Part shown: positions 15,081 through 35,235 of the stretch, in pieces | Numbering within the stretch: the stretch's first letter is position 1 | Layout of the letters: each line of letters opens with the position of its first letter | Assembly (NCBI GenBank): GCA_040905805.1 | Contig: JBBDQS010000138.1 | Coordinates: 16,879-71,138, forward strand | Length of the DNA stretch: 54,260 nt | Direction of reading: 5' to 3' | From: Egibacteraceae bacterium | Lineage (GTDB): Bacteria; Actinomycetota; Nitriliruptoria; Euzebyales; Egibacteraceae | Position numbers and translations under genes: made by a program | Notes under the pieces: generated by a model | Told to the model about the DNA's origin: nothing | Seen by the model: only the letters and a program-made list of their open reading frames with translations | The model's database searches: none

Positions 15081-15213
15081 CCGCTGCGTGCGCGCGCCGC
15101 GGTCGGAGGGTTCGCAGAACTGGCCCCGTGCTGGGAGGAGTTGTCGGCAAGCCGGGGCCCTGGCAACGGCGGTCGTCGCCGGGACATTCGCGGTGCAACG
15201 AGCGTCGAGAGGC

Positions 15214-15285
15214 GAACCAGGGAGCGCACGGAGCGGCGAACGAGCAGGCGAACGAGGCAGCGAACGAGCAGACGAACGAGGCAGC
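15214..15285. repeat. 12-bp tandem repeats in transfer-operon gap
   Basis: Six consecutive 12-base units, the last four close to GAACGAG(C/G)CAG(A/G)C and the first two more divergent. They lie in the 254-base gap between the hydrolase gene and the single-TM gene, the only long non-coding stretch in the operon. Direct iterons of this kind suggest a protein-binding site such as an origin of transfer or replication or a regulatory array. No other feature of the gap (15081-15334) was recognised. Confidence 0.8.
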
Positions 15286-15334
15286 GCACACCTCGGGCGA
15301 TGTGTGGCGCGACGTCGGGGGAGGTGGGCGGCCA

Positions 15335-18231: not shown

Positions 18232-20711
18232 GCCAGGGCCGCCAGTCCGGGTGCCTCTCCGCTGGCCTCCACACGCGGACCGGCCGACGGGTTGGTGTCG
18301 AAGGCGGCATGCAGATCCGGATCCGCGGGCAGCACCTGGATGAACCCGACGCGGCCGTCCCCATCACGGAACAGGGCCTGGCCCGATTGCGCGTGCGTGA
18401 GGAGCTCTCCTGCCGCCGAGTCGCCGTCGATGCCGAGGAAGCGCAACGCGGCGGGGACCGCACCCGGATCCTGGCGGAACACGAAACGGCTGCCGAGCAG
18501 GTGCGCGAGCTGGTCGTCGCCGAGGTCGTCGGCGTGCTGGGACAGCAGCCACACCGCTGCGTTGTGCTTGCGGCCGTCGCGGACGAAGTCGAGCACGAGC
18601 TGGCGGCCCTGCAGGCTGGCCGTGAGCGCCCACGCCTCGTCCAGGCAGGCAGCTGCGAACCGGGACCAGTCCGAGAAGGTGACCTGCCGGGTGATGGCGG
18701 CCACCAGGTACAGCAACGCCTGTGACAGCACCTGCTCCGGTAGGAGCTGGGGGGACAGGTGCGAGGCGGCCAGGTCCTCACGCCGGGGCAGAGCCAGCCC
18801 TGGCGTGTGGAAGACGAGGTAGTCGGCGTCGATGGCCAGCAGCTCACGGTCGGCGTCGAAGACCAGGCCGGCGAGCCGGCTGCGCGCCATCGCGCGGACC
18901 TTGCGGAAGACGGTCCTGGCTGCGCCATCCTCCTGCCCGAGGCGCTCGAGCTCGGCCACGACCGCGCCGATGGTCGCGTCCTGATGGGCACAGGCGGATT
19001 CGACCGCCTCGGCGATCGCCACCCCTTCAAGATCGGTTGGCGCCACCTGGGCGAGCAGGGTCAGGAAGCCGGTGGCGACCACGGCCCGCTCGTCGCCGGC
19101 GAAGACCCGCATGGGGTCCAGGCAGACCGGCGCGTCGGCGGCGAGCCGGACGATCTGCGTCCGACCGGGCAGCACCTCGGCGGCGGCCACGTACTCGCCG
19201 CGCTCGGTCCGGTCGAGCGCGACGACCCTGCCACCCCGCGCCAGCGTGGCGTGCAGCACCCGCTTGATCAGATAGCTCTTGCCGCTGCCGAGGTTGCCCG
19301 CCACGCCGACAGAGCCCGACCGCGATCGGCTGGGACCCCATGCCGGATCGAGCAGCACCGGGCGCCCACCCGACCCGCCAAGGTTCTCGGCGAGCAGCAT
19401 GCCCTGCGGATCGCCGACCTCGTGCCCCACGAACGGCGCGCCCGCGGCCAGGTCCCGGGGCAGCAGGAACTGCGCGTAGTCGCGAGCAACCGCTGGCGTG
19501 GGGCTGGCGGGCAGCATGGCCGTGAACAGCGCGAGCTGACCACCGGTAGGGCGGGCCAGACCGTACTCGGCGGCGGTGAACTGTGCCTGCAGCTGCTCAC
19601 AGCGAGCCTCGAGCCCGTCGAGGTCGCTGGCCCACGTGGCCAGCAGCAGGCTGACGCGCAGCTCGGGCTCGCTGCGGTTCGCGGCCAGCTCGCCGCGTTC
19701 CTCGTCCACCCCGGCGACCGCGTCGACCAGGTCGTGGGGCAGCCCGGCGGTCTCGGCCTCGTGCTCCTCGAACTGGCTGGCGAGCTGGCGGGCTTGGCGG
19801 CGGGCCCGGACCTGGGCGTCCTCGTTGGGCACCGCCGTCAGGCGCGCGCACCAGTCGACGGCGTAGCCGATGGTGTCGAGCTGGCGGAACCACTCGCCGC
19901 CGCCGTCGGGGAAGAAGAACTCGCGGGGCATGTCCGCGACCGCCAGGTGAGCCTGGTAGCCCGTGCCAGTGACGGTGTCCACGCGCAGGTAGCGGCGGTG
20001 CGAGGGCCGTGCCGGATCCTCGCGGGTGCCGCCCTCGTAGAAGACACCGTCGGCCAGGGGCTGCAGCGACGGCCCGGTGACCCGCCCAGCGTCGCCGTCG
20101 CCGACACGGCGTTCGCCGTCGGTCCACGCATCATCGAGGTAGGGCTCAGCGGTGCCCCGACGGGCCGCCCGGGCGTACAACCAGCGCAGCTCGCCGGCAG
20201 GCACCCGCTCGAGGGCGAGGAAGCGGCCCAGGCGGGCCTCGACGAGGGCGGCGTCGCGCAGCCGTGCCTGCACCGCACCCGCGTTGACCGGCACTGGCGG
20301 CAGGCCGAAGCGCTCCCCGACCCCCAGCGTGGCGGCCGCCCACGATGACCGGCCGGCGCGGCGGTCCGGCAGCCGGGTGACGAGGTAGTGACGGCGCTCG
20401 CGCGTCTCCGCGCCGATGAGCTGGTCAAGGGTGTCGGTCGCGCCGGCCCGCCAGGCAGGGCACGCGTCGAGGTCGACGCCGGCGACCATCGCCTCCACGA
20501 TCTCACCGGGGTCGAGGAGGCGCGCGACGCCCAGCAGCATCGACTCTCCCGGCATCTGGGCGAGCGCGGCGCGCAGCCGTGCGTGGACCCGCAGCTTCTC
20601 GGCCACCGGCAGGTGGGGAAAGGTCACCGGCTCTATGCGGTAGGCAGCCCACACGCTGGCGTCCCGGCCCCACAGGAGGTGACCGGTGACGGCGCGGACC
20701 GGCAGGCGCAC
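18228..20711 (-). CDS. VirB4/TraC-type conjugation ATPase
   Basis: An 827-aa ATPase powering the secretion channel. Walker A is GNLGSGKS (472-479), Walker B CLDEAW (689-694), with a WLLSQHADDL sensor-like motif after it and a long N-terminal domain as in VirB4/TraC proteins. The start is GTG at 20711, two bases after the stop of the TcpE-like gene, giving the expected MRLPVRAVTGHLLWGRD beginning; longer frames extend into the neighbour. It lacks TM segments and should be cytosolic, docking on the channel. Confidence 0.92.
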   Translation of the reverse strand: MRLPVRAVTGHLLWGRDASVWAAYRIEPVTFPHLPVAEKLRVHARLRAALAQMPGESMLLGVARLLDPGEIVEAMVAGVDLDACPAWRAGATDTLDQLIGAETRERRHYLVTRLPDRRAGRSSWAAATLGVGERFGLPPVPVNAGAVQARLRDAALVEARLGRFLALERVPAGELRWLYARAARRGTAEPYLDDAWTDGERRVGDGDAGRVTGPSLQPLADGVFYEGGTREDPARPSHRRYLRVDTVTGTGYQAHLAVADMPREFFFPDGGGEWFRQLDTIGYAVDWCARLTAVPNEDAQVRARRQARQLASQFEEHEAETAGLPHDLVDAVAGVDEERGELAANRSEPELRVSLLLATWASDLDGLEARCEQLQAQFTAAEYGLARPTGGQLALFTAMLPASPTPAVARDYAQFLLPRDLAAGAPFVGHEVGDPQGMLLAENLGGSGGRPVLLDPAWGPSRSRSGSVGVAGNLGSGKSYLIKRVLHATLARGGRVVALDRTERGEYVAAAEVLPGRTQIVRLAADAPVCLDPMRVFAGDERAVVATGFLTLLAQVAPTDLEGVAIAEAVESACAHQDATIGAVVAELERLGQEDGAARTVFRKVRAMARSRLAGLVFDADRELLAIDADYLVFHTPGLALPRREDLAASHLSPQLLPEQVLSQALLYLVAAITRQVTFSDWSRFAAACLDEAWALTASLQGRQLVLDFVRDGRKHNAAVWLLSQHADDLGDDQLAHLLGSRFVFRQDPGAVPAALRFLGIDGDSAAGELLTHAQSGQALFRDGDGRVGFIQVLPADPDLHAAFDTNPSAGPRVEASGEAPGLAALA

Positions 20712-20713
20712 GG

Positions 20714-21133
20714 CTACGGCTCCCGGTGCTCGCTGACGGGCACGGCGGCGCCGCGCGGACACTGGGGCCTCGGTGTGGTCACCGCACGGCCGTGGCACAC
20801 GCCCCGACGGGGTGCGGCGAGGTAGGTCAGCCCCCCGACGGCGGCACGCACCGGGGAGCGCCCTTCAACCCGGGCATGGCGGACGAGCCACGCCAACGCC
20901 AGCGGCACAACCGGGCCCACCACGAGGTTGACGGGACCAGGCATGTGCGCCCACACCGCACGGGTCTGCAACAGCAGCACCGCCGTGACGACCAGCACCG
21001 CGTACTGCGTGACCGTCATCGGTCCCCACCACGGGTACCAGCCGCCGATCTTGCCGATCACCAGCGGGTAGCGGCGGGCGAAGGTGTAGCTGCGGCAACG
21101 CAGCCGTTCAGGCTCGGTGGAACGCTCGCTCAC
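20714..21133 (-). CDS. TcpE/PrgI-like conjugal transfer protein
   Basis: A 139-aa membrane-associated protein. RCRSYTFARRYPLVIGKIGGW near the N terminus is followed by two hydrophobic stretches (around 43-60 and 68-85) and then VEGRSPVRAAVGGLTYLAAPRRG, the signature arrangement of TcpE-like proteins of Gram-positive conjugation systems. The start is GTG 21133, preceded by GGGTGA; the longer frame from 21163 overlaps the neighbour more. It overlaps the end of the 105-aa membrane protein by 26 bases. It precedes virB4, as in other TcpE-containing systems. Confidence 0.8.
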   Translation of the reverse strand: MSERSTEPERLRCRSYTFARRYPLVIGKIGGWYPWWGPMTVTQYAVLVVTAVLLLQTRAVWAHMPGPVNLVVGPVVPLALAWLVRHARVEGRSPVRAAVGGLTYLAAPRRGVCHGRAVTTPRPQCPRGAAVPVSEHREP

Positions 21134-21425
21134 GCTCGTCACCCGGCCCATCGGCAGCCGCAAACCTCAACCCGTCGGCGCCCAGGAGGGGCTCGGCGAG
21201 GGCGGGGGCGAGCGCGATGGTCTCCTGCCCCACCTTGCGCTCGAACCAGTCGATGTTGTTGACCGCCCAGATCACCGCGCCCGCGAGCAGCGCCGCGACT
21301 GCCACCGGCACGACCGCCTTGGTGCGGGCGTAGATCATCGAGACGGTGATGATCGCGAACACCACGATCCCCGCCCGGATGAGCGTCAGCATCTGGTCGA
21401 TGATCCCGTGGGCCCACTCGAACAT
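21108..21425 (-). CDS. Small two-TM conjugation protein
   Basis: A 105-aa protein starting at ATG 21425 after AAGGAGG (spacing about six), with two hydrophobic helices (about residues 13-32 and 41-58) and an acidic/basic tail. It fits the small membrane subunit (TcpD- or VirB2-like) often coded between TcpC and TcpE. No sequence motif proves this. The ribosome binding site overlaps the stop of the tcpC-like gene, so the two are coupled. Confidence 0.75.
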   Translation of the reverse strand: MFEWAHGIIDQMLTLIRAGIVVFAIITVSMIYARTKAVVPVAVAALLAGAVIWAVNNIDWFERKVGQETIALAPALAEPLLGADGLRFAAADGPGDERERAFHRA

Positions 21426-21435
21426 GGCTCCTCCT

Positions 21436-22341
21436 TCAGGTGGCTGGTGCAGACAAAGGCGCGGCCGGGTGGACCGTGGTGACCTCCCAGCGCCCGGCGC
21501 GCTCCACGACGTCGAGGGAGTAGCCGAGGACGGCGGTGCGCCCCGCGTCGTCGGTGGCCGCGACCTCCAGGCGCAACAGCACGCCGCCGGCGCGGCGCCG
21601 CACCAGCCCGGCACGCTGCACGACGACCTCGACGTAGGCAGGCGGCGAGACCGCCACGAGGTCGAGCCCCGGGGCGGTGTAGCGGTCCACCTCGCCGTCG
21701 CCCGCCAGGTAGGCCCGCAGGAACCGCTCGGCGGCCTCCAACGCCTCCCCCGGCTCCGGACGCCCGAGCGATGTGACCGCCAGGCGTGCGGGCTCGCCGG
21801 CGGATGGCGGTGCCGCCATGAGGCTGGGCGGGCCGGTGACCGCCAGACCGCCGGGGCTGTCGAAGACCCCGACGGTGTAGTAGCGCACGCCCTGGGGCTC
21901 GTAGCCGCCGGCGTCTGCGGCGAGGGTGTCGGCAGCGACGGTCACCGCCCAGTAGCCGGGGGCCTGCTCGTCGCTGGCGACCACAGCGGTCCGCAGGACG
22001 TACTGGCTGCCGGGGGTGACCGCGCGCAGGTCGACCGGCTGCGCCAGGAACGGCTCCACCGCTGCTTCCTGCCCCCTGCCGGCCCCGCCGAGGTAGGCCC
22101 ACAGGAACACCTCGGCGGTGGCTTCCGCAGCGGTGGTGTCCGCCGGCAGTTGGACCGCTGCCGTTGCGGTGTCGCTGCTGGCATGCAGGAGCAGCGAGGC
22201 GATCCCGGCGCTTGCAGCCACCGCGACCAGCAGCCACAGCACCACGTGCAGGAGCCGCGTCAGCAGCAACGATGGGACGCGAGGCGCTCGACGAGGCCCA
22301 GGCTCGACCGACGCCGCGGCGTCGTGGGTGGTCCCGGTCAC
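21436..22341 (-). CDS. TcpC-like conjugal transfer protein
   Basis: A 301-aa bitopic protein: basic N terminus, one TM segment (about residues 33-56), then an extracytoplasmic part with two similar NTF2-like halves (AEVFLWAYLGG ... and AERFLRAYLAGDGEVDRYTAP ...), matching the TcpC architecture of Gram-positive conjugation channels, where it scaffolds the wall-side part of the complex. The GTG at 22341 overlaps the stop of the 65-aa gene (GTGA). No catalytic function is expected. Confidence 0.85.
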   Translation of the reverse strand: MTGTTHDAAASVEPGPRRAPRVPSLLLTRLLHVVLWLLVAVAASAGIASLLLHASSDTATAAVQLPADTTAAEATAEVFLWAYLGGAGRGQEAAVEPFLAQPVDLRAVTPGSQYVLRTAVVASDEQAPGYWAVTVAADTLAADAGGYEPQGVRYYTVGVFDSPGGLAVTGPPSLMAAPPSAGEPARLAVTSLGRPEPGEALEAAERFLRAYLAGDGEVDRYTAPGLDLVAVSPPAYVEVVVQRAGLVRRRAGGVLLRLEVAATDDAGRTAVLGYSLDVVERAGRWEVTTVHPAAPLSAPAT

Positions 22342-22535
22342 GCGACCGCGTCCTCGGACAGCCCGGCGACGCGTTCGGCGTAGGCGTCGGCCACCGGGAT
22401 CGCGTCGTCGAGCACGCCGCGCAGCCGGCGCAGCGCGGTGGGGTCGAGCAGCACACCGCTGCCCACCAGCTCGTCGAGCTCGCATTCCAGGCGACGGTGC
22501 GTCGTCGCGGCGCGGGTCATCGTCAGGTCAGCCAT
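22338..22535 (-). CDS. Small 65-aa transfer operon protein
   Basis: A 65-residue predicted helical soluble protein. The ATG at 22535 lies six bases after GGAGG; the neighbouring ATG at 22538 is too close. It overlaps the upstream LysM gene by eight bases and the downstream gene by GTGA, so it is embedded in the coupled operon. The function is not recognised; it resembles a small cytosolic accessory protein by charge (LECELDELVGSG). Confidence 0.7.
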   Translation of the reverse strand: MADLTMTRAATTHRRLECELDELVGSGVLLDPTALRRLRGVLDDAIPVADAYAERVAGLSEDAVA

Positions 22536-23520
22536 CATGTGCCTCCTCGGGTGTCGGGACGGTGGGCAGCTCGAGCAGCTCCCCGGGATGGATCAGGTCG
22601 GGGTCGCCCGACCGCAGCCGGGAGCGGTTGTGGTCGGTGACCGCACGCCAGTAGCGGGCGACCTCCGTCACCGACGGGGCACGGCCCCAGTCCGCTGCCA
22701 GGGCCGCCTCGGCGACGACCCAGAGGTTGTCGCCTGCCACGACCTCGTAGGGCTGCCGCCCCGACGCGTCCGCGACCGAAGCCCCCTCGGGGGTGCCGTC
22801 CGTCGCAGCAGCGTCCTGGGCAGCAGCGTCCTGGGCAGCCTGGGCCGGAGCCGGCTCGGCGGGAGCCTCACCGCCAGTGGCCTCGTCGCTGGCCGGTCCC
22901 GGGGCCGCTTCCTCGCCGGCGTCGGGCGCATCGTCGTCGCGGCCGGTCACGTCGATCCCGGGCTCGTCGGGCAAGGCCGGGTGCGGACCGGGCAGTGGGG
23001 GGATGCCCGCTCCCGCTCGGGGGGAGGCGGGAGCGGGCGGCGGTAGGCCGGGGACGGATGGTACGTCGATGTCGATGTCGCCGGTGAGCGGGCTGGTGTC
23101 GGTGTGGTGGACCGGCGGCGGCCACACGGGCAGCTCGTTGGCCACCGCTGGGCCAGTCCCGACTGCGACAGAGGACCCGGCCAGGACGATCGCGACCGCC
23201 CGGTCGGCCACACGGCGGACAACCGGCAGGGTCGCCCACTCGACGGCGCGGATGGCGGCGGGTATCCCGCTGGCGCGCGCCACGAGGTACAGGATCGCGC
23301 TCGCCAGGATCCAGTAGGCCGCCGCCAGGCCGGCCAGCCGCAGCAGGGCCGCCCCCACGTCGCCCAAGGGCGTGACCTGCAACCACAGGTCGAGGTCGGT
23401 CCAGTCGACGCGGAACCGCGGGCTCTCCCCAAGTCGGTGCAGAAAGGCTGCCGCGCCGGCGGGCACCGCCAGCGCGGTGAGAACCTCGCCGACCCTCTGG
23501 ACACGTGCGCCACCTTGCAT
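22528..23520 (-). CDS. LysM-domain membrane protein, first gene of the transfer operon
   Basis: A 330-aa protein. Two or three hydrophobic segments lie in the first 120 residues, followed by a long Pro/Ala/Asp-rich linker and, near the C terminus (about 255-320), a LysM-like module (YEVVAGDNLWVVAEAAL ... HPGELLELP) that would bind peptidoglycan or chitin-like glycans. It would tie the transfer apparatus to the wall. The start is taken at ATG 23520; a GTG at 23538 is in frame with no clear ribosome binding site, so the true start could be either. The start region is divergent from the excisionase gene. Confidence 0.75.
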   Translation of the reverse strand: MQGGARVQRVGEVLTALAVPAGAAAFLHRLGESPRFRVDWTDLDLWLQVTPLGDVGAALLRLAGLAAAYWILASAILYLVARASGIPAAIRAVEWATLPVVRRVADRAVAIVLAGSSVAVGTGPAVANELPVWPPPVHHTDTSPLTGDIDIDVPSVPGLPPPAPASPRAGAGIPPLPGPHPALPDEPGIDVTGRDDDAPDAGEEAAPGPASDEATGGEAPAEPAPAQAAQDAAAQDAAATDGTPEGASVADASGRQPYEVVAGDNLWVVAEAALAADWGRAPSVTEVARYWRAVTDHNRSRLRSGDPDLIHPGELLELPTVPTPEEAHDG

Positions 23521-23558
23521 GCCGCCATGGTCTACCACGAGAAACCATAAATCAACCC

Positions 23559-23588
23559 TTTACAGCGCATGGCATCCGACGCTACAGT
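23559..23588 (+). promoter_or_regulatory. Candidate promoter of the excisionase-integrase operon
   Basis: TTTACA (23559-23564) and TACAGT (23583-23588) are separated by 18 bases, a sigma-70-like pair 60 bases upstream of the excisionase start. It is the best promoter-like match in the divergent region. A near-palindrome GGTTGCACGTGCCAACC (23615-23631) follows between the -10 box and the gene and may be an operator. Confidence 0.5.
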
Positions 23589-23648
23589 GCCGAGCGAAGC
23601 GTGCGACATCACGTGGTTGCACGTGCCAACCGCAAGGGAGAGGACCCC

Positions 23649-23987
23649 ATGTCGACATCGCGGAGATCGGCGTCGGGAAGCCGGGGCCACACGCGCCACA
23701 GCACCGCACGCCTGAGTGAGCTCCCCCCGACGCTGAGCGTGGACGAGGCCGGCGAGATGCTCGGCATCAGCCGGCGCAGCGCTTACCGGGCCGTGGCCCG
23801 CGGGGAGATCCCCACCCTGCGGCTGGGCCGGCGGCTGCTCGTGCCGACGCCGCGGCTGCTCGCGCTGCTCGGCGCGGCAGATGGATACGCCGCCGAGTTG
23901 CCGGCCGGAGACCCCGAGCGGGAGCAGAGTGCTGGCAGCGCGCCCGTACCCGCCCCGCACAACGGTGAGCAGGTGACCGCACGATGA
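23649..23987 (+). CDS. xis: Excisionase-like helix-turn-helix protein
   Basis: A 112-aa protein with a MerR/excisionase-type winged helix (LSVDEAGEMLGISRRSAYRAVARGEIPTLRLGRRLLVP, about residues 28-65) and charged tails. Such proteins bind arm sites and steer the integrase toward excision. ATG 23649 follows GGGAGAGG. Its stop overlaps the integrase start (ATGA). Context with the integrase supports the assignment; it could also be a general regulator. Confidence 0.85.
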   Translation: MSTSRRSASGSRGHTRHSTARLSELPPTLSVDEAGEMLGISRRSAYRAVARGEIPTLRLGRRLLVPTPRLLALLGAADGYAAELPAGDPEREQSAGSAPVPAPHNGEQVTAR

Positions 23988-25267
23988 CCGGCCAGGTCTT
24001 CCGCCGCTGTTCGAAGTGCCTCACGCGACTCAAGCCGCGCGCTCGGCGCTGTGCCTGCGGGCACCCGAACTACAGCTGGTACTTCGCGGTCGACACGGTG
24101 CCCGGTCGCAAGAACCGCAAGCGGGTTCTTCGCGGAGGCTTCCCCACGCGGGAGACCGCGGAGTATGCCCTGAACGAGATCGTGCAGGCCATCGCTCAGG
24201 ACTCCTACGTCGAGTCGTCCACCGAGACACTCGAGGACTTCTTCACGATCCGGTGGCTTCCCGCCATGAAGCCGCCCACCCTCGAGGCCACCACCTGGGC
24301 GGAGTACAGCCGCAAGATCCGCAACCAGATCATCCCGCGACTCGGCGCGCTGCCCATCCAGAAGCTCCAGCCCACCCACCTCAACCGCCTCTACGCCGAG
24401 CTGCTCGCGCACGGGCGCACCGACGACAAGGGCGGCCTGGCCCCCAAGACCGTGCGCGAGGTCCACGTCATCCTGCGCAAGGCGTTGAGCGACGCGGTGC
24501 GCTGGGGCCTGTTGACCCGCAACGTGGCCGTGAACGCCGACCCGCCCTCCTACCGCATGGCCAGCGTCGCCCGGCAGGCGATCATGCGGGTCTGGTCGGC
24601 CGAGGAGCTGCACGCCTTCCTCGACCACGTCCGTGACGACCGGCTGTTCGCCGTGTGGATGCTCGCGGCCAACACCGGCATGCGCCGCAGCGAGGTCGGT
24701 GGCGCCCGCTGGCAGGACCTGCTGTTCGACTCGGCGCGCCTGGCGGTGCGCCAGCGACTCGCCAGCGTCGACGGGCACCCGCAGCTGTCGGTGCCCAAGA
24801 GCCCCCGCAGCCGCCGGACCATCGACCTCGACCGGCGCACGCTAGAGGCCCTCAAGCTGCACCGCGAACGTCAGCTCGACGACCGGCGGCGCTGGGGTCC
24901 GGCCTGGCACGACCTCGACCTCATCGCCGCCCGCGAAGACGGCATGTGGATCCACCCCGACTGGCTGTCGGAGATGTTCCGCGCGCACGTCAAGGCGACG
25001 GGCCTGCCCAAAATCCGGCTGCACGACCTCAGGCATACGCACGCCAGCCTGCTCCTGGCCCGCAGCGCGCACCCCAAGATCGTCTCCGAACGGCTCGGGC
25101 ATCACTCCGTCGCGTTCACGCTCGACACCTACGCCCATGTCATGCCCGGGATGCAAGCCGAAGCGGCGGAGAGCCTGGCCGACGCGATCTTCGACGAGCC
25201 TGAGCCCGACGAAGACGCAGAGGCCACCACAGGAGTCAACGAGGACGACGAGGAGGGCTCCGCGTGA
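23984..25267 (+). CDS. int: Tyrosine-family integrase
   Basis: A 427-aa site-specific recombinase. A Cys4 zinc-ribbon-like module (C9, C12, C23, C25) precedes an arm-binding region and a core-binding domain (about 80-180). The catalytic set is R234 (GMRRSE), K272 (PKS), H347 and R350 (HDLRH), H373 (LGHH) and nucleophile Y383 (DTYAH). All are present, so it should be active. The C-terminal tail is acidic. It lies 88 bases from the 3' end of tRNA-fMet, the probable attachment site. Translationally coupled to the excisionase gene. Confidence 0.95.
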   Translation: MTGQVFRRCSKCLTRLKPRARRCACGHPNYSWYFAVDTVPGRKNRKRVLRGGFPTRETAEYALNEIVQAIAQDSYVESSTETLEDFFTIRWLPAMKPPTLEATTWAEYSRKIRNQIIPRLGALPIQKLQPTHLNRLYAELLAHGRTDDKGGLAPKTVREVHVILRKALSDAVRWGLLTRNVAVNADPPSYRMASVARQAIMRVWSAEELHAFLDHVRDDRLFAVWMLAANTGMRRSEVGGARWQDLLFDSARLAVRQRLASVDGHPQLSVPKSPRSRRTIDLDRRTLEALKLHRERQLDDRRRWGPAWHDLDLIAAREDGMWIHPDWLSEMFRAHVKATGLPKIRLHDLRHTHASLLLARSAHPKIVSERLGHHSVAFTLDTYAHVMPGMQAEAAESLADAIFDEPEPDEDAEATTGVNEDDEEGSA

Positions 25268-25271
25268 CCCC

Positions 25272-25291
25272 GTGCAATCTTGGTGCAATCT
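25272..25291. repeat. Two copies of GTGCAATCT beyond the integrase
   Basis: GTGCAATCT occurs at 25272-25280 and 25283-25291, an 11-base period, directly between the integrase stop and the tRNA. Such adjacent direct repeats are typical of arm-type integrase binding sites, but this is inferred. Confidence 0.5.
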
Positions 25292-25319
25292 CGTTCGCGG
25301 GAGCGCCCGATGCGAAAAT

Positions 25320-25350
25320 GAGAAAACCCCCGGCTGACCAGGGGTTTCTC
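25320..25350 (-). terminator. Hairpin after the tRNA-fMet gene
   Basis: Arms GAGAAAACCCC (25320-25330) and GGGGTTTCTC (25341-25350) form a stem; read on the minus strand it directly follows the tRNA 3' end and is trailed by ATTTTC, consistent with a transcription terminator for the tRNA. In the other direction it would stop integrase transcripts, though without a T tract. Confidence 0.65.
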
Positions 25351-25354
25351 GGAG

Positions 25355-25428
25355 TTGCGAGGGCGGGATTTGAACCCGCGACCTCCGGGTTATGAGCCCG
25401 GCGAGCTACCGAACTGCTCCACCTCGCG
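25355..25428 (-). tRNA. Initiator tRNA-fMet (anticodon CAT)
   Basis: A 74-base cloverleaf with anticodon loop CTCATAA. It carries the initiator features: C1 opposite A72 at the top of the acceptor (CGCGAGG against CCTCGCA) and the three consecutive G-C pairs in the anticodon stem (GGG/CCC). The T-loop GGTTCAAATCC is intact. CCA is not encoded. Its 3' end faces the integrase, so the ICE appears to have integrated into this gene while leaving it functional. Confidence 0.96.
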
Positions 25429-25470: not shown

Positions 25471-28400
25471 TCAGACCGGAGGCGGGTCTTCGTCTTCGCC
25501 CTCGGCGTCGGCGTCGGCGTCGGTCTCCGCTTCTTCCTCGTCCTCGGCCTCGTCGTCGGCGTCCTCGGTGCCCGGAGCGGTGCCCTCAATGAGCCCCTGG
25601 GCCTCCTGCAACAGCTCGTTGGCGTCCCGGGTCAGCTCGCGGTAGGCCCCGAGGTCCCCGGCCATCAGCGCCTCCTCCGCTTCGGCGAACCGTGCGAGGG
25701 CATCGTTGACGAGCGAGGCGACCCTCGGGTCCTGGGTGACGATGGGGCCGCCCTCCCCCGGCTCCTCGCCGGACGCCGGGTCACCGGGCAGGCTGTCGCG
25801 CGACTGTCCACCCCGGTCCACGACGGCGCCAGCCTCCGGCCCGAACATCGCCCCGAGCGCGTCGGCGAGGGTCTCCTCGAACACGACCCGCTCGCCGAAG
25901 ACCAGCGCCACCCGGCGCAGCTCGGGGATCTCGCCCTGCTCGGCCCGCAGGAAGATCGCCTGCGCATACAGCAACGAGTCCTCGATGGGGATCACGAGCT
26001 GGTTGCCGTAGATCACGTTCGCGCCAGAGTCGTTCCAGCGCCCGATCTGCTCGGCGATGTCGTCGTTCTGGTCAACCTGCGCCTGCGCCTGCCCGGGACC
26101 GAACACCGTCCTGTCGGGGGGCATCAGGTACGCCTTGAGCTGCCCGAGATCCTCGCCGTCGCTGCGACCGGCGAGCCAACCGATCAGGTTGGGACGGTTG
26201 ACCGGCACGAAGGGTTGGATGAGCGCGAACTCCTCGTCCACCTCGCCCGGCAGCCGCATGAGCAGGTAGTAGGGACGCATGGGCCGCGGAGCCTGCCGTT
26301 GCTGCTGCGGCAACCCCTGCTGGTTCTGGATGAACGCCGCGTCGACCGGGATCTCCCAGGCGTCCTCCTTGAAGAAGAACTGGTCGGCGTCTTGGATGTG
26401 GTAGGTCTCGAACAGCGACGCCTGCACCCGGAACATGTCCTCTGGGTACCGGAAGTGCGCGCGCAGCTCTTCGCTGGCTTCCTCCGCGGGGGTGAAGCTC
26501 TCGGGGAACGCGCCGCGCCACGCGCCGATGATCGGGTCGTCCTCGTCCATCACGTACAGCGTGACGGTGCCGTCGTAGGCGTCCACGACCGCCTTCACGC
26601 TGTTGCGGATGTAGTTGGCCCGGCCGGTCAAGCCCGGCAGCCGGCGGGTCTGCTCGACCAGGGCCAGCTCCCCGTCCGGCCCCTGGGTCGGCACGAGCTC
26701 GCGCTGCTCGGCCAGCGTGTGCTCCGCCAGGTCGATGCGCTCGGAGTACGGCACCATGTCGGTCGTGGTGTAGGCGTCCTGCACCCACTTCACCTTGTCG
26801 TCGACCGCCACCGGGTAGGGGTCGTGGTCAAACTTCAGGAAGGGCGCCACAGCCTCGACCCGGTCGCGGATGTTGCGGTTGAAGATCACCTTGCTGTCCG
26901 CGTTGAGCAGGTCGGACAGCACGAAGTTCGGCTCGGTGAAGCGAAACGCGAACGCCAGGCGCCCGAGCATCCCGCCGACGCTGACACCGTCGTCACCGGT
27001 GTACTCGTAGCGCTCCGGCTCGCCCTCGTCGACGGGGAAGTCGAGCTCGGCGACCTCGGTATTCAGGATCGAGTACTGCGGCGGGTTCTCCCCGAAGTAG
27101 ATGCGGGGGTTGTCCACCTCCAGGGCCTCGTCGCCCTCCGGGGGGATGTCGCGCACGAAGAACACCGGCTGTCCCCCGCCGTCGGCGATGCTCACGTCGC
27201 TGGCCACGAACCCGAACCCGTGGGTGTAGACCAGCCGGCGGTTCTGCCAGTTCTGGGCTGCCTCCGGCAGGTCGTTCTCGTTCAGCTCCCGGACGCTGAG
27301 CATGACCTGCTCGACGCCGTCGGCGAACGGGTAGCGGTCCACGTCCACGTCACGGAAGTCGTAGTAGGTCCGCAGCTCCTGCAGCTGGGCGTAGGTGCTC
27401 TGCAATGTGGCCGGGTCCCACATGCGGATCGATTCGAGCGTGGCTTCGTTGTCCGCGACCTGCTCCGGCGTCAGCGACGAGCGAGCGGGGAAGCGCTCGA
27501 ACTCGACGTCGTCGTCGATCACCAAGCCGAACGCGAACCGCGTCATGTCGAGGTTGCGGTCGATGTACTGGCGTTCCCGCGGCAGCTCCTGCGGGTCCAC
27601 CTGCAGCCGCTGGATGACCGCCGGGTAGACGCCGGCGAGCACGACCGCGGCGACGACGAGGATGCCGACACCCGCCGAGGGCAGCAGCCACCCACGGAAG
27701 CGGAGGTTGACCAGGAACAGCACGACGGTCACGGCCGCGATCACGGTGAGCAGCTGCAGGGCGATCAGCTGGGCGTTGACGTCGGTGTAGGACAACCCGG
27801 TGACCGTGCCGCGCTGCGAGTAGCTGAGCATGTAGCGGTCGAGCCAGAACCCCCACGCCCGGACCGCCACGATCCCGGCCAGCAGGATCGACAGGTGCAC
27901 GGCGACCTGCGGGGCGATCTTCTGGCCGGGCGACTGCGGACGGATGCCGCCGAAGAGGTAGTGCGCGACCGCGGTCAGCACGATCGTCAGCGCCAGCGCG
28001 GTGAACAGCCAGGAGTTGACCAGTGCGTGGAACGGCAGGATGAAGACGAAGTAGCCGAGGTCGCGGGCGAACTGCGGGTCGTCGATCCCGAACTCGGTGG
28101 CGTTGGCCCACAGCAGGTAGGTGTCCCACTCGCCCACCATCGACAAGCCCGACAGCACGCCGATCAGCACCGCGACCCCGAGCAGAAGCGGGCGCGCGAA
28201 CGGCTCGACCGCCTCCCGGTAGCGCTCGACGCCCTCCTCCTGTGCCGACGGGATGCGGTACGGGGGCGCGAGCTTGCGGGCGAGCATCAGGTTGCCGGCG
28301 AGCAGGCCGGCCATGACCAGTCCCGCCACGATCCCGAGACCAACCCGCGTCGTCAGGAGCGTCCAGAAGACGTGCGCGAAGCCGAGGCTGTCGAACCACA

Positions 28401-28509
28401 GGATGTCGGTGTAGAAGGTCGCGACCCTCGTGCCGAACAGCAGCAGGACCACGATGAATGCCAGCACGAGCAGCCACCAACGGCGCCGCAACTGGTCGAG
28501 AAAACTCAT
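25471..28509 (-). CDS. UPF0182 family large membrane protein
   Basis: A 1012-aa member of UPF0182, a family widespread in actinobacteria and cyanobacteria with no settled biochemical role. About seven hydrophobic segments occupy the first 320 residues (for example 10-30, 50-72, 103-122, 155-180, 205-225, 255-300), followed by a large extracytoplasmic region with conserved blocks such as [25 protein letters not shown] and [13 protein letters not shown]. The C-terminal tail (about the last 60 residues) is strongly acidic, Glu/Asp-rich, and not typical. The ATG at 28509 overlaps the stop of the DivIVA-domain gene (ATGA). It is the first chromosomal gene after the tRNA. Confidence 0.93.
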
Positions 28510-30044
28510 GAAGAAGGCTCCGATACGGGAAGGGTGGTGCAGCTGCAGCCAACATGGACCGGCGGGGCGTCGTGCCCGCTAGGGTACGCGGCACCCATGG
28601 CCACCACACCGGCTTGGCTGTTGTGGCGACAACGGGCCTCAGGACAGCGGGGTTCCCGGCCCAGCACCCATCGGCGGTGCGTGACGCCGCCAGCGATCCA
28701 CGCGTCCAACATGCCCAGCTCGTAGGCACGCAGCAGATGCGTGACGGCGAGCTCATGGGCGACGGTGCCCTTGAGCTCGACGAACACCCCGCTCACGCGC
28801 TCGGACCACGCCTGGGGTTCCTCGCCGGCGGATCGCGCCATCCGCAAGGTGGCCGCAAGCGGCTTGCGCACCCGTTCCGACAGCTCGGCCATGAACGCGT
28901 CGACCAGCGCGCGCTGGCCGTCCGGCGACGGCAGGTCGCGGTCGACCAGCAGGGATGCGACCGCCAAGCCCGCCTCGTAGGCCTCGCGCAGCGGCGCAAC
29001 GGCAGCGTGGCGGATCGCTTCGATCTCCTCGCTCACCAGCGACTCGGGCTCGACGTCGCCGCCGGTGCGACGTAGCCGATCAAGCGCCACGTTCTGCACC
29101 TCCTGGAGGCCCCGCTTGATCGCACGGACCAGCTGGGGACGCAGGGGTTCCAGGGCCGCGCCGCGCAGGCCGTGGGGGTCGGCGGGGTCCTCCTCAGCGG
29201 CGGCGAGCCCGACGGGGCCGGCCAGCTCCGGCTGCGTCTCCGGTACCGCTTCCGCCGCGGGCTCCGGCTCGGGCTCCGGGTCCGGCCCTGGCTCGGGCTC
29301 CGGTACCGGCTCCGGTAACGCTTCCGCCTCGGGCTCCGGCTCCGCCTCCGATGGCCCTTCCGGTTCGTGCTCGTGTCCACGTTCTGGTTCCGGTTCGGGC
29401 GGGTGATGGCGTTCCGGCTCCGGTTGCGCCAGCAGGGGCGGCTCAGCAACCTCCATCGGCGCCGCGGCAACGTCCGCCGACGCAGTGAGCCCGGCGGTCA
29501 GCGCCTCCCGCACCGTCGCGGCAGGAAGCGCGGGCGCCGCGAGCTCGTTGATGACCTGATCGACGGTCCCGGCGATCTGGCGCAGCTGCTGGGAGAGGTT
29601 GGCCCGAGCCGCCTCCAGCCCGGCCACGATCTCCTCCGCCTCTTCGCGGCGCTGCTCACCCTCGGCGATCAGGCGCGCAGCCTGCTGTCGACCCGACTGG
29701 ACCTGTCGGTCGGCGTCGACACGGGCCTTGCGCGCGATCGTCATCGCCGCTTCCCGCGCGGCGTCGAGGATGCGCTGGGTCTCGGGCCCGATGTCGAAGA
29801 ACTGCTCCTCGGCCTCGGACGCCTCGTGCGGGGCTGTCTCGTGCGGGGCTGTGCTGGTCTCCTCAGCGGCAGGCAGCGCGTCGAGCTTGCCCTCCGCCGC
29901 CTGCAGGCGGGCTTCGAGCTCCCGGACGGTGTCGGCAACCTCGGTGAGGAACGCACGGACCTCCGCACGGTCGTAACCACGCAGGGAGACGAGGAACTCG
30001 CGCCCGTGGATCTCTTCAGGGGTGAACAACGCCGCTCCCTTCAT
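28506..30044 (-). CDS. DivIVA-domain protein with phage-head-like C-terminal motif
   Basis: A 512-aa protein. Residues 7-40 match the DivIVA N-terminal membrane-binding segment ([26 protein letters not shown]), then coiled-coil (about 30-55 and 90-170), a Glu/Pro-rich low-complexity linker (about 205-280), and a helical domain. The last 70 residues carry CPEARCRHN, then [14 protein letters not shown], a pattern like the C-terminal metal-binding motif of phage Mu F/SPP1 gp7 head proteins. DivIVA proteins organise poles and septa; the tail's role here is unknown. No other phage gene is close. Overlaps the UPF0182 start. Confidence 0.8.
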
Positions 30045-30095: not shown

Positions 30096-31346
30096 TCAGC
30101 TGTCGCCAAGCAACAGCTCCACGACCAGCTCCACCAAGCCCTTCACCGGCTGGCCGAGCAGGCCGCCCGGGCTGGGCGGCGGTGGCCCGGGACCGCTGTC
30201 ACCGCCGTCCCCACCGGGTTCCGTCGCGGGTGGCGGTGGCGGCGTCGGCGCCTGTGCGGCGGTCGACGGCGGCGGCGGCGGGGCGGGTTCGGGCTGATCT
30301 GGCGTGGGCGAGGACGGGGCCGCGGGCGTCTGCCCGGACGAGCCACTGGGTTCGGTCGCCGGCGGCGGTCCCGACGGTGCGGCGGCGGGCGGCGCGTCCG
30401 CCGGGGGGGCCGCCGGCGCGGGCGGGTCCAGCCGGGCGGTGTAGCGGGCCTGCGCCACGTCGACCACCTCGGCCAAGCGCGTGGCGGTCACCCCCATCTC
30501 GGTGGCGACGAGGCCCCACCGCGCACCGGCGGCACGCAGGTCGGCGATGTCGCGGAGTGCCGCGACAAGCGCGTCGGGCGACCCGGACGGGGTCGCGGAC
30601 TGGGCGACGAACAACCGCAGCAGCGTCTCGCCTGGGGACCCCGGCCCCGCCTCTCCGGCAACACCGCCGGAGAGCGTCCCGACGGCGGGTCCGGGGATCG
30701 CGGCGAAGGCCGCGTAGAACTCCGCGGACCTGGGCTCGGTCCCATACGCGCGGGACAGCCCGCGCGCCAGCCGCTCCGCCTCGCGGTCGAAGGCGATGGC
30801 GTCGCGCAGCAGCACCTGATCCCACGGGTCATCGGGCCGGTAGGTCAGCGGCTGGCCTGAGGCCGCCAGACGGCGCGCGGCCAGACTCGCCTCGCGCAGG
30901 GCGGGCAGCGTGCGCACCTCGGCCGGACGGCGCACCCGCACCTGACCGCTGTACACGCCGATGCGGGGATCGATTCCCAACGCCAGCCGGTAGACCCCCT
31001 CACCGGAGACCTCGACGTCGTCCCACCGACTCTCGAGGCCCCCGTCGCTGTCCGCGAGGGCCTCGCCGCGCTCCAGGCGGAACCAGTCGTCGCCGATCAC
31101 CGCCGCGGCTTGCGGCGCGAACCACACCTCACCGGAGCTGAAGGCGATCCGCGCCTCGTCCTCCCCCGTCCGCAGCCGCGCCCCCGCCGGTATGGCCTCG
31201 CCGGCTCCGACGGTCGCCCAGACACCACCCACGGAGACCTCCGCCATGTCGCCGGCCACGACCTGCGCGACCTCCTCCCCGCCAGGATCGTCGCCCGTGC
31301 AGCTCGCGACGATCATCAGGACAGCAAGGGGCGCCAGCAAGGTCAA
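30096..31346 (-). CDS. FecR-like-domain lipoprotein
   Basis: A protein of up to 416 aa. The N-terminal hydrophobic segment ends in a lipobox-like IVASC (Cys16), so it is likely lipid-anchored outside the membrane. Residues about 30-130 resemble FecR-type beta structure (VWATVGAGEAIPAGARLRT, then EARIAFSSGEVW, a strand-rich pattern). A helical middle follows and then a Pro/Gly/Ala-rich disordered C terminus (about 310-400). The start is a TTG at 31346, poorly supported; no better ATG or GTG is in frame. Likely a surface sensor or scaffold; partner unknown. Confidence 0.65.
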   Translation of the reverse strand: MTLLAPLAVLMIVASCTGDDPGGEEVAQVVAGDMAEVSVGGVWATVGAGEAIPAGARLRTGEDEARIAFSSGEVWFAPQAAAVIGDDWFRLERGEALADSDGGLESRWDDVEVSGEGVYRLALGIDPRIGVYSGQVRVRRPAEVRTLPALREASLAARRLAASGQPLTYRPDDPWDQVLLRDAIAFDREAERLARGLSRAYGTEPRSAEFYAAFAAIPGPAVGTLSGGVAGEAGPGSPGETLLRLFVAQSATPSGSPDALVAALRDIADLRAAGARWGLVATEMGVTATRLAEVVDVAQARYTARLDPPAPAAPPADAPPAAAPSGPPPATEPSGSSGQTPAAPSSPTPDQPEPAPPPPPSTAAQAPTPPPPPATEPGGDGGDSGPGPPPPSPGGLLGQPVKGLVELVVELLLGDS

Positions 31347-31513: not shown

Positions 31514-34180
31514 CTACCGGTCGGCCACCGGGATGACCAGGTGCACCGTCGACCCGCGGTCGGCCTGCGACTCCACGGACACGTCGCCACCCAGCCCGTC
31601 CATGATGCGCCGCACGAGCGCGAGTCCGAGTCCGAGGCCGCCGTAGGGGCGGGTCTCGCTCGCATCGACCTGGTAGAAGTCGGAGAAGATGCGCGCGGCG
31701 GTCTCCGGCGTCACGCCCACCCCCCGGTCGCGCACGGCGAGTCGGACCATCGACGCCGGCCCGTCGGTGTCCAGACGCGCCATGATGCTGACCGGCTCGC
31801 CGCCGGGGGAGAACTTGACCGCGTTGTCCAAGAGCTCGTCCAGGCATCGCCGCAGCATCCCGGGATCGACGAGCACGGGCGGGAGGTCCTTCGCGATCCG
31901 GCGGGTGAACTCCCGCTCCGGATGGTGCGCACGCCAGCCGTCGAGGACGTCGCCGACGAGCCCGGCCAGGTGGACCGGTTCCTGTTCCAGTCGCAGCCGC
32001 CCGCTGTCGAGCGCCGCGAAGTCGACCACCATCTGCACGATGCGCTCCAGCTGCGCCGCCGACCGCAGGATCTGGTTGGCGTACCGCTTGGTCGCATCCG
32101 GCCCCGTCTCCCGGCTCGCGAGGACGTGGGCATAACCGCTGATGGGTGTCAGGGGTGTCCGCAGCTCGTGGCTGACGTTCGCCAGGAACTCGGTCTTCAT
32201 GCGCTCGACCTCGACCTCCCGGGTGACGTCGCGTAGCACGAGCACCCTGCCGAGCACCGCTCCGCTCGGGTCGTGCACCGGTGCGGCAGTCGCCGCCGCC
32301 GGGACCAGGTCGCCCCCGGTGCGTTCAAGCAGGAGCTGCACGGCGACCACGTCTTCGCTGACCGGCCCGCCGAGCGTGGCCGCCGCCGGTGCGTCGTTCG
32401 GGCCTTGGCCACGCAGCACCTCCTCCAGCGGCAGCCCCAGGGCGTCGGTGACGTCCCGGCCCACCAGACGCTCCGCGGCCGGGTTGAACATGATGATCTT
32501 GCCGTCGGCGTCCACCGCGACCAGGGCATCGCCCATCGACGAGGTCAGCGCCTCCATGCGGGCACGCAGCCGGGACTGGACGTCCGCGGCCTCACGCAGC
32601 TGCGCAGACTGGGCCGCCAGGGATACCGTCATCTCGTTGAACGTGCGGCCCAGCTGACCGATCTCGTCGTGGCTGTCGATCGCCGCCTCGGCCTCGAGGT
32701 CACCCTCGCGAACGGCTGCGGCAGCCGTCGTCAGGCGGCGGATCGGCGCGACCAGCCGTCCGGTGACCAACGCCGCCACGCCGCCGGCGAACAGGGCGCC
32801 GAGCAGCGCCAGCAGGAACAGCCGTTGGACCAGGCCACGCTCGAGCTGCGCGATGACGTCTGATGTCGAGGTGGCGACGACCCGACCGACGACATTGCCG
32901 GCGGGGTCACGGACCGGCTGGGCGGCCGCGTACCAGACCTGGTCGTCGGCGGTGAACGTCCCGCGGGTCGCGCCCGCGTCGACCTGCGCGACGATCTGGT
33001 TGGCGGCACCCGCCACCCCGCTGGAGGCGACGTTGAACGCCGCCCCCGTCTCCAGGATCAGCTCCACGTCCAACGGGGTGGCACTCTCGATCCATTGGCC
33101 GTCGGCCACCCGCCCGGTCAGCAGGGCGCCGCGGACAGGCTGCTCGGGGGACTCGCCCGGCACACCGACCGCCCCGACGCCGACGATCTGCCCCGCGACG
33201 GTGATGAGGTCGCCGGCCGGGGGCCCCCCGTCGAGCACCCCCTCGACGGTGGGGCTGCCGGCCATGCCCAGCACGAACGAGTCGACGGCCAGGTCCTCGG
33301 TCGGCGAGTAGGCGAGGCGCTTCTCGCCGCGGGGACCGATCACGACGAAGAAGTCCTGCGTGGCGAAGAACGCGTCGTAGGCGATCGCCAGGCCATCGCG
33401 GTCGTCGGGATCGAACCCGAGGAACGTCTCGCCGGCGACGCGAAACGGCCGCCCGGCGTTGACGGCGGCGGCCGGCCACTCCGCGATGTCCTCCGCCACC
33501 CGCTCGGCGGACCCGTCCAGGCGGCGGAGCTCCTCGGCGACCAGGTCCGCCGACCCGAGACCGGACAGCACCCCCGCCATCAGCACCACCACGACGAGCA
33601 GGCTGGCGACGAACGCGGTGACGAACTTGCCTTGCAGCCTTCCGGCGCTCGCCTGCCACAACCACGCGCCGAGCGCCAGCGACCCGGCGAGGACCAGCCA
33701 GCTCGCCGCGGTGACCGACGTGAGCGCGACCCACTCGGCGGCGCCCCAGGCGAGCAGCCCGCCGCCCACGAGGGCGGCGCGCCGCCCGCCCGTCAGTGCC
33801 CGGACACCGGCCAGAAGACCGGCGAGGGCGCTGACCAGCGCCGCGGGCACCGGCGCGACCGGGATCAGGACCGTCGGGCCGGCGAGCTGGGCCATGCTGC
33901 GCCCGGACAGCCCCAAGGCCACCAGCACCAGCCCTGCGGCCCGCAGCCATGCCACCGTGTCGCCGAGCCCGGTGACCAACGCGCCCGACAGTCCATGGCT
34001 GATCGCGATCGCCAGGCTGCCCACCGCCACGAGGGTGGCAGCCCTCCCGCCACCACCCGGCATGGGGTCGGTCGCAGGCCTGCCCGGGCGCACGACCACG
34101 ACGATCGCCAGCCCGGCCGCGGCGAACAGCGCAAGCAGGCTGGCGGCCAGATGCAGCGGCGTCAACAGGCTGGCAGCCAT
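31514..34180 (-). CDS. Membrane sensor histidine kinase (HAMP-PAS-HisKA-HATPase)
   Basis: An 888-aa sensor. Several TM helices (first about 190 residues, then near 190-215 and 445-465) frame an extracytoplasmic sensing domain (about 215-440, dCache/CHASE-like). HAMP follows (RLVAPIRRLTTAAAAVREGDL), a PAS domain (about 540-650), HisKA with His671 (SHELRTP), N box LDELLDNAVKF (780-790), G boxes DRGVGV (about 818) and GGLGLGLAL (about 847). All kinase motifs are intact. No response regulator is next to it, so it is an orphan. Signal unknown. Confidence 0.92.
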   Translation of the reverse strand: MAASLLTPLHLAASLLALFAAAGLAIVVVVRPGRPATDPMPGGGGRAATLVAVGSLAIAISHGLSGALVTGLGDTVAWLRAAGLVLVALGLSGRSMAQLAGPTVLIPVAPVPAALVSALAGLLAGVRALTGGRRAALVGGGLLAWGAAEWVALTSVTAASWLVLAGSLALGAWLWQASAGRLQGKFVTAFVASLLVVVVLMAGVLSGLGSADLVAEELRRLDGSAERVAEDIAEWPAAAVNAGRPFRVAGETFLGFDPDDRDGLAIAYDAFFATQDFFVVIGPRGEKRLAYSPTEDLAVDSFVLGMAGSPTVEGVLDGGPPAGDLITVAGQIVGVGAVGVPGESPEQPVRGALLTGRVADGQWIESATPLDVELILETGAAFNVASSGVAGAANQIVAQVDAGATRGTFTADDQVWYAAAQPVRDPAGNVVGRVVATSTSDVIAQLERGLVQRLFLLALLGALFAGGVAALVTGRLVAPIRRLTTAAAAVREGDLEAEAAIDSHDEIGQLGRTFNEMTVSLAAQSAQLREAADVQSRLRARMEALTSSMGDALVAVDADGKIIMFNPAAERLVGRDVTDALGLPLEEVLRGQGPNDAPAAATLGGPVSEDVVAVQLLLERTGGDLVPAAATAAPVHDPSGAVLGRVLVLRDVTREVEVERMKTEFLANVSHELRTPLTPISGYAHVLASRETGPDATKRYANQILRSAAQLERIVQMVVDFAALDSGRLRLEQEPVHLAGLVGDVLDGWRAHHPEREFTRRIAKDLPPVLVDPGMLRRCLDELLDNAVKFSPGGEPVSIMARLDTDGPASMVRLAVRDRGVGVTPETAARIFSDFYQVDASETRPYGGLGLGLALVRRIMDGLGGDVSVESQADRGSTVHLVIPVADR

Positions 34181-34236: not shown

Positions 34237-35235
34237 TCAACTCGAGACGAACAGCTCCTTCAGATCGTTGAAGGACTCGATGGTCGTCCCCGCCCCCGTC
34301 ACGACCGCCTCCAGGGGAGCATCGACCAGATTGACCTTCAGCTGGGTTTCCTGCGCGATCCGGGCGTCAAGCCCGCTGAGCAGCGCCCCACCGCCGACCA
34401 GCCACATCCCGCGTTGGAGGATGTCTTGGGTGAGCTCGGGGGGGCAGTCCCCCAAGGTGTCCACCACCGCGCCGACGATCAAGCTGATCTGGTCCTCGAT
34501 CGCTTCACGGACCTCCTCGGCGCTCACCACGACGACCTTCGGCAGACCCGACGCGAGCTCCCGTCCACGGATCTCCGCCTTGGGCTCGTCGGCCTGCGGG
34601 TAGGCCGAGCCCACAGCCATCTTGAGCTCCTCGGCGGTGCGCTCCCCGATGGCCACGGCGTACTCGCGACGCACGAAGCTCTGCAGCGCCCCGTCGATGT
34701 CGAACCCCCCGACGCGCACCGCCCGGCACGCCACCACGCCGCCGAGGGAGATCACCGCCACCTCCGAGGTGCCGCCGCCGACGTCGACGATCATCGAGCC
34801 CTCCGGTTCGTGGACGGGCAGACCGGACCCGATGGCGGCCGCCATGGGCTCCTCCATGAGGTAGGCGGCGGTGGCCCCAGCCTGCACGGCGGCCTCCTGG
34901 ACGGCGCGACGCTCGACCTCGGTGATCGCGCTCGGGACGCAGATCACCGCTCGGGCGCGCGTGAAGCGGCTCACCCCCACCTGCTGCATGATCAGCTTGA
35001 GCAGGCGGGCGGTGGTGTCGAAGTCCGTGACCGCCCCACCGCGCAGCGGCCGATCGGCGGTGATGTGACCGGGGGTCCGGCCGATCATGGCGTACGCCTC
35101 GTGTCCCATGGCGAGGACGTCGCCGTTGCGCTGGTTGACCGCGATCACCGTCGGCTCGTTCAGGACGATCCCGCGACCCTTGCTCCACACCAGGGTGTTG
35201 GCGGTGCCGAGGTCGATCGCGATATCACGGGACAT
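34237..35235 (-). CDS. mreB: Rod-shape protein MreB
   Basis: A 332-aa bacterial actin. Phosphate-1 motif DLGTANTLVW at 8-17, connect and phosphate-2 motif IVDVGGGTSEVAVI, and adenosine motif MWLVGGGALLSGL are all present. It polymerises beneath the membrane and guides wall synthesis. The usual mreC and mreD are not adjacent. Start at ATG 35235. Confidence 0.95.
   Translation of the reverse strand: MSRDIAIDLGTANTLVWSKGRGIVLNEPTVIAVNQRNGDVLAMGHEAYAMIGRTPGHITADRPLRGGAVTDFDTTARLLKLIMQQVGVSRFTRARAVICVPSAITEVERRAVQEAAVQAGATAAYLMEEPMAAAIGSGLPVHEPEGSMIVDVGGGTSEVAVISLGGVVACRAVRVGGFDIDGALQSFVRREYAVAIGERTAEELKMAVGSAYPQADEPKAEIRGRELASGLPKVVVVSAEEVREAIEDQISLIVGAVVDTLGDCPPELTQDILQRGMWLVGGGALLSGLDARIAQETQLKVNLVDAPLEAVVTGAGTTIESFNDLKELFVSS

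Follow-up and report, generated by a model that had tools for sequence, protein, structure and literature searches.

A cellular DivIVA-type gene with a complete MuF-type domain is kept beside UPF0182 in Actinomycetota

Architecture and neighbourhood of the fusion gene

The locus lies in a window of 54,260 nucleotides (the whole stretch of DNA that was analysed) from an Egibacteraceae bacterium, where genes for an MreB-like actin, a sensor histidine kinase, a protein with a lipoprotein-like start, the DivIVA-MuF fusion and a UPF0182 protein follow one another in this order (Table 1). The N-terminus of the fusion protein matched the Pfam DivIVA model with 36.6 bits (curated cut-off 28) and TIGR03544 with 38.3 bits over residues 7-39 (cut-off 22). 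The Pfam match extends to residue 136 and takes in the coiled-coil part of the model, so the coiled coil is a putative one, assigned from this match. A Pro/Glu-rich linker leads to the C-terminal MuF-type domain, which is laid out as a helical bundle followed by a small Cys/His tail, with the CPEARCRHN...PPVHVGCSC pattern at residues 467-502. A sequence-only reading of this DNA had proposed both the DivIVA start and an overlap with the UPF0182 gene, and the two hold, the overlap being the ATGA shared by stop and start.

Table 1. Positions of the fusion gene, its parts and its neighbours in the window
Feature	Position	Strand	Basis
UPF0182 gene, 1012 aa, constant downstream partner	25471..28509	minus	Pfam PF03699, 7.5e-281
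ATGA stop/start overlap of fusion gene and UPF0182 gene, 4 bases	28506..28509	minus	Read in the sequence
DivIVA-MuF fusion gene	28506..30044	minus	ORF with ATG start, 512 aa; relatives with the same architecture
MuF-type domain (phage portal C-terminus / minor head), residues 288-510	28515..29183	minus	PHROG 2662, hhalign, AF2, Foldseek BFVD
Cys467, Cys472, His497, Cys500, Cys502 motif	28539..28646	minus	Conservation in relatives
Pro/Glu-rich linker, residues 190-287	29184..29477	minus	27 P and 26 E per 98 residues
DivIVA domain and beginning of putative coiled coil, residues 8-136	29637..30023	minus	Pfam PF05103, 5.3e-9; TIGR03544, 7.7e-10
Upstream gene without Pfam family; start judged lipoprotein-like by eye	30096..31346	minus	Pfam search; relatives upstream of UPF0182 in a few loci
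Sensor histidine kinase (HAMP, PAS, HisKA, HATPase)	31514..34180	minus	Pfam; similar kinase upstream in 11/65 tail loci
MreB-like actin	34237..35235	minus	Pfam MreB_Mbl, 1.4e-127; upstream in 25/65 tail loci

The genome of the window also carries an ordinary second DivIVA gene (3.6e-29), and therefore the fusion need not be the polar organiser of this bacterium. It is probably an extra, specialised scaffold that exists beside the ordinary DivIVA.

The neighbours of the fusion are envelope-type genes. In addition to MreB, a PDZ/Lon-like protein is encoded upstream, in the orientation of the fusion, at 54 of the 65 loci with the tail, a count which, like those in Table 1, includes some loci with little upstream sequence and some distances of several kb. 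One locus (L164:5153-8278) has both the PDZ/Lon-like and the MreB gene ahead of the fusion-UPF0182 pair, as in many genomes, and this could be a shape or envelope gene cluster. A portal or terminase gene was not seen beside the fusion, the neighbour being UPF0182 in 70 of 71 genomes and the neighbours in the window being UPF0182, an unassigned gene, a histidine kinase and MreB.

On the other side of the UPF0182 gene, a tyrosine integrase gene (23984-25267, plus strand) lies beside a tRNA-Met gene (25354-25428, minus strand). Conjugation-type genes are located at 15338-22485, including AAA_10/VirB4-like, TrbL/VirB6, M23 peptidase with SLT and TcpC, and the region 12280-25428 is probably an integrative conjugative element. 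No repeat of the tRNA-Met of at least 16 bases was found elsewhere within the window.

Homology of the C-terminal domain to phage MuF proteins

When the window protein was searched as a single sequence, Pfam Phage_Mu_F (PF04233) gave no match, and TIGR01641 (SPP1 gp7) matched weakly (E 0.003, 17.6 bits against a cut-off of 39.65). The window protein is therefore a homologue within the MuF superfamily and not a curated member of it. The portal protein family PHROG 2662 matched its last 204 residues at 5.1e-8, and with the 233-residue C-terminus as the query the match improved to 3.4e-9 over residues 22-229, falling in the C-terminal part of the portal family. In a tblastn search of phage records the best match of the C-terminus was a putative portal protein at E 0.01, which is weak alone, and phmmer found no meaningful match among PDB sequences.

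For the family as a whole, 67 candidate domains were listed, and after leaving out a fragment (L213) and a decayed copy (L226) the cellular alignment (A5) contained 65 rows. Scanned singly, 46 of these 65 members matched PHROG 2662 (best 2.9e-17), while 15 matched TIGR01641 and 12 matched Pfam Phage_Mu_F at E<=0.01. Viral relatives were collected with a ten-residue pattern as the seed of a scan; of its 134 candidate stretches, 105 passed confirmation and 80 were kept. Comparing the cellular-only profile (A5) with a viral-only profile (A6, 54 rows) by hhalign gave a probability of 99.7% and an E-value of 5.3e-27 over 215 columns. With the seed pattern masked, the cellular HMM still matched 67 of the 80 viral loci at E<1e-3 and none of the reversed ORFs.

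The AF2 model of the domain was of high confidence (pLDDT 93.7, pTM 0.90), and Foldseek against BFVD retrieved 136 viral proteins at E<=0.001 with TMq up to 0.76, and the leading matches that carry names are portal, head morphogenesis and minor capsid proteins. The model was built on an alignment (A4) that took in 55 of the 80 viral loci, so the predicted fold is not independent of the viral sequences; the profile comparison is. Against the PDB, Foldseek returned nothing for the domain model at E<=0.001, and VIA-align returned only helical-bundle matches (best Z 8.5, to the MxA stalk), which is chance level for helical bundles. No solved MuF chain was present among the PDB matches of either program, and one may still exist.

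Altogether, the C-terminal ~225 residues of the fusion are a complete MuF-type domain, homologous to the Mu F / SPP1 gp7 superfamily. The sequence-only reading had likened the end of the protein to Mu F and SPP1 gp7 proteins and suggested a structure prediction of its last ~80 residues. The likeness is confirmed by the profile comparison, the PHROG matches and the predicted fold, and the structural resemblance to head proteins that was looked for did appear among the BFVD matches, but the extent has to be corrected to the whole ~225-residue domain. In the same way, the Cys/His pattern of the supposed metal-binding tail is present at the C-terminus, and describing it as a tail only was too narrow.

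A quick IQ-TREE analysis took 60 of the 65 cellular domains, five partial rows being excluded, together with 54 viral domains from the 80 loci; the viral rows left out were near-copies by the rule of the script and then L076 and L096. A branch with support 99 set all cellular rows to one side, in an unrooted tree whose viral rows derive from a single motif-seeded scan. This fits a single capture of the MuF domain, as far as can be read from an unrooted tree that samples a portion of the viral MuF proteins. Because MuF is broad in tailed phages (PMC5576092), the direction would be from phage to cell; together with the one-sidedness of the cellular rows, this wide spread points towards a domain borrowed from a phage, again on an unrooted tree.

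Distribution of the fusion and its pairing with UPF0182

A search with the whole protein found some match in 22 of 41 genomes, its own included. In the class of the window 17 of 66 genomes had the tail by the domain profile, as did 71 of 396 genomes sampled from the phylum. It was found in 6 of 18 genomes in the class of genome G193 and in 165 of 197 genomes, covering 109 of 119 genera, in that of G282. Five of the relatives carry names; they are MAGs from Egibacteraceae, Egibacter and Nitriliruptorales. Of the 67 candidates, 62 could be scanned at the N-terminus, the remaining five having too little frame in front; 59 of these stretches matched Pfam DivIVA and 51 the NCBIfam Wag31 model (both at E<=0.01), while 45 matched TIGR03544. 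None of the 80 viral loci had a DivIVA match. The matches in the phylum sample are spread over 25 families, counted by the family codes of the search tool with one true phage protein left out. The combination had earlier been regarded as unusual, and it turns out instead to be a kept gene of these 25 families. The fusion is a cellular gene family and is probably kept vertically.

The most constant feature of these loci is the UPF0182 gene. Directly 3' of the fusion and in the same orientation, it is present in each of the 17 genomes with the tail in the class of the window, in 57 of the 58 phylum loci that were fetched (the exception, L213, is the short fragment) and in 70 of the 71 tail-bearing genomes of the phylum sample. 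The survey that had been proposed for the fusion and UPF0182 thus bears out the pairing. Among genomes that were checked later, the fusion adjoins UPF0182 in three (G106, G297 and G345) and not in G204, where the match is a plain Phage_Mu_F protein (7.8e-17) that can be considered as a natural control. One genome (G218) carries two fusion genes (L210 and L262), each adjoining its own UPF0182 gene. The distance from the stop of the fusion to the start of UPF0182 homology ranged from -95 to 275 bp, with a median of 41 (n=64). The distance matrices of the tail and of UPF0182 were correlated (r 0.69), a value reached in none of 2000 permutations; joint vertical descent would produce such a correlation.

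The pairing is not required from the side of UPF0182. In the phylum sample UPF0182 was present in 258 of the 396 genomes, far more than the 71 with the fusion domain, and therefore UPF0182 can work without the fusion. We read 34 loci in the class in which UPF0182 occurs without the tail, and where the gene in front could be told, it was a PDZ/Lon-like gene (upstream in 17 of the 34), MreB (in 8) or MoaE (in one, L215). In one family (f3; L221-L225), a short DivIVA without MuF occupies the site 5' of UPF0182 in all five loci, Pfam-confirmed in one of them, and this is perhaps an ancestral or a reduced state.

The fusion itself also varies. It is split over two frames in L228, its tail is decaying in L226, and three of the 65 members end ahead of the tail. 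An internal deletion in L012:1357-1716 has left 120 residues, with the DivIVA start joined almost directly to the Cys/His tail; this could be a naturally shortened version, or the gene may be in decay. Taken with the loci in which UPF0182 occurs without the tail, the deleted, split and decayed copies indicate that UPF0182 can outlast a loss of the fusion.

Evidence on UPF0182 itself was sought in structures and in the literature. No sequence relatives of UPF0182 were found in the PDB, and its AF2 model, made from a 6-row alignment, was poor (pLDDT 39.2). In mycobacteria, Rv3193c of M. tuberculosis is presumably a UPF0182 protein. When a strain mutated in the division gene rv0954 was analysed by TnSeq, Rv3193c, listed with 7 TM helices, was under-represented (PMC8093794). 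In a ClpC1 interactome, MSMEG_1959, which is named UPF0182, was grouped under cell-envelope proteins (PMC10433963). This is thin support from outside our analysis for a place of UPF0182 in envelope growth.

Proposed role, alternatives and known systems

DivIVA-type proteins gather at curved membrane. We consider it probable that the fusion is a cellular, vertically kept DivIVA-type scaffold which uses a domesticated phage MuF domain to organise the UPF0182 membrane protein. The DivIVA N-terminus and the coiled coil would drive multimerisation and position the protein at the cytoplasmic side of the membrane, at a pole or septum as we infer from DivIVA homology, and the Pro/Glu linker would give the MuF domain reach towards its partner. 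This partner would most likely be UPF0182, which crosses the membrane several times and has a large part outside it; the MuF domain may then have found new use as a docking module that concentrates UPF0182 where the envelope grows or the cell divides. The MuF protein gp7 of SPP1 binds the portal ring (PMC5576092), and it is by analogy with this binding that the MuF domain of the fusion would be re-used for docking. The analysis shows the domain make-up, the MuF homology, the steady pairing with UPF0182 and the breadth of conservation, and physical docking to UPF0182 and a role in envelope growth are what we infer from the arrangement. A more far-reaching version, in which the MuF domain was captured once deep in Actinomycetota, was fused to DivIVA and became a core part of envelope growth that physically docks UPF0182, is put forward tentatively, as a proposal with slightly less in its favour than against it.

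Another possibility is that the Cys/His tail is a zinc or redox sensor that alters the activity of UPF0182, with the DivIVA part doing nothing but oligomerise. In the 62 members that reach the tail, C500 and C502 are always kept, H497 is kept in 59, and C467 and/or C472 is present in every one; in addition, 11 of the 65 loci have a histidine kinase gene upstream. Both points could be quoted for a sensor. All five residues occur together in 43 of the 62; however, one of the first two Cys is missing in 17. The viral rows vary in the same manner, with the complete set in 29 of 54, and because they share both the pattern and the kinds of loss, the pattern is probably structural and inherited. We therefore regard the sensor as unlikely; the cluster probably holds a structural metal, judging from the pattern of conservation. 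The second Cys is replaced by Ala in nine members (L172, L188, L192, L195, L199, L205, L206, L207 and L211) and the first by Ser in others. As either of the first two can be replaced in some members, one Cys alone seems to be enough.

The fusion could also act as an anti-phage decoy, its MuF domain binding the portals of infecting phages at the membrane and spoiling head assembly or ejection. One study reportedly describes a mycobacteriophage protein that inactivates Wag31/DivIVA, and the binding of SPP1 gp7 to the portal (PMC5576092) would suit a decoy as well. Defence genes are usually patchy and mobile, whereas the fusion occurs in nearly all genomes of one class (165 of 197) and adjoins UPF0182 in 70 of 71 genomes, which makes a decoy quite improbable.

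An accidental fusion of a head gene to a DivIVA gene, left by a prophage or mobile element and functionless, is more improbable still. In the window a conjugative-type element with an integrase does lie past UPF0182 at the tRNA-Met. A remnant would need relaxed selection, and the conservation found argues the opposite: the fusion is kept in 25 sampled families, with the UPF0182 neighbour and the correlated distances (r 0.69, 0 of 2000 permutations) described above. A prophage remnant is therefore ruled out by conservation and gene context. Least probable of all is a convergent motif, a zinc-knuckle tail that only resembles MuF, for which the missing Mu F match in the Pfam search with the window protein alone could be quoted and which is ruled out by the 215-column hhalign comparison and the masked-motif test, with the PHROG and fold matches equally contrary.

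For the preferred reading, a DivIVA-type scaffold for UPF0182, the consequences can be stated briefly. In PMC5576092, MuF proteins are described as nearly all prophage-linked and the function of the domain as unknown. A widely kept cellular gene with a whole MuF domain would offer a second, non-phage setting for learning what MuF binds. UPF0182 is widespread and unexplained, and an adjoining DivIVA-type partner points to envelope growth or division, which can be tested by direct binding. If true, the fusion would clearly exemplify how cell-organising machinery can take up a phage head domain.

The open-licence PMC literature, a scope which mostly excludes subscription papers and preprints, contained no paper with both DivIVA and MuF as whole words and none with DivIVA together with Acidimicrobiia; searched there with "head morphogenesis" or "minor capsid", DivIVA occurred in reference titles only. 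Neither a housekeeping job for the MuF domain nor a partner for UPF0182 was found in this literature.

Compared with known systems, the fusion shares the N-terminal DivIVA domain and, putatively, the coiled coil of the DivIVA family (PF05103; Wag31, GpsB) and differs from it by the added Pro/Glu linker and MuF domain. With the MuF superfamily (PF04233, TIGR01641) and the PHROG 2662 portals it shares the whole C-terminal domain, both helices and Cys/His tail, whereas it is chromosomal, joined to DivIVA and paired with UPF0182 rather than with a portal or terminase; in PMC5576092, prophage linkage was found for 96% of muf genes in bacterial genomes. The UPF0182 (PF03699) loci without the fusion, which make up most UPF0182 genomes in the phylum sample (258 with UPF0182 vs 71 with the fusion, of 396), have the PDZ/Lon-like and MreB neighbours in common with the fusion loci. 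Encapsulins (PMC8987985) are similar in that a phage head-derived protein is kept as a cellular gene; they form an HK97-fold shell, while the fusion would carry a portal-adaptor domain on a membrane scaffold.
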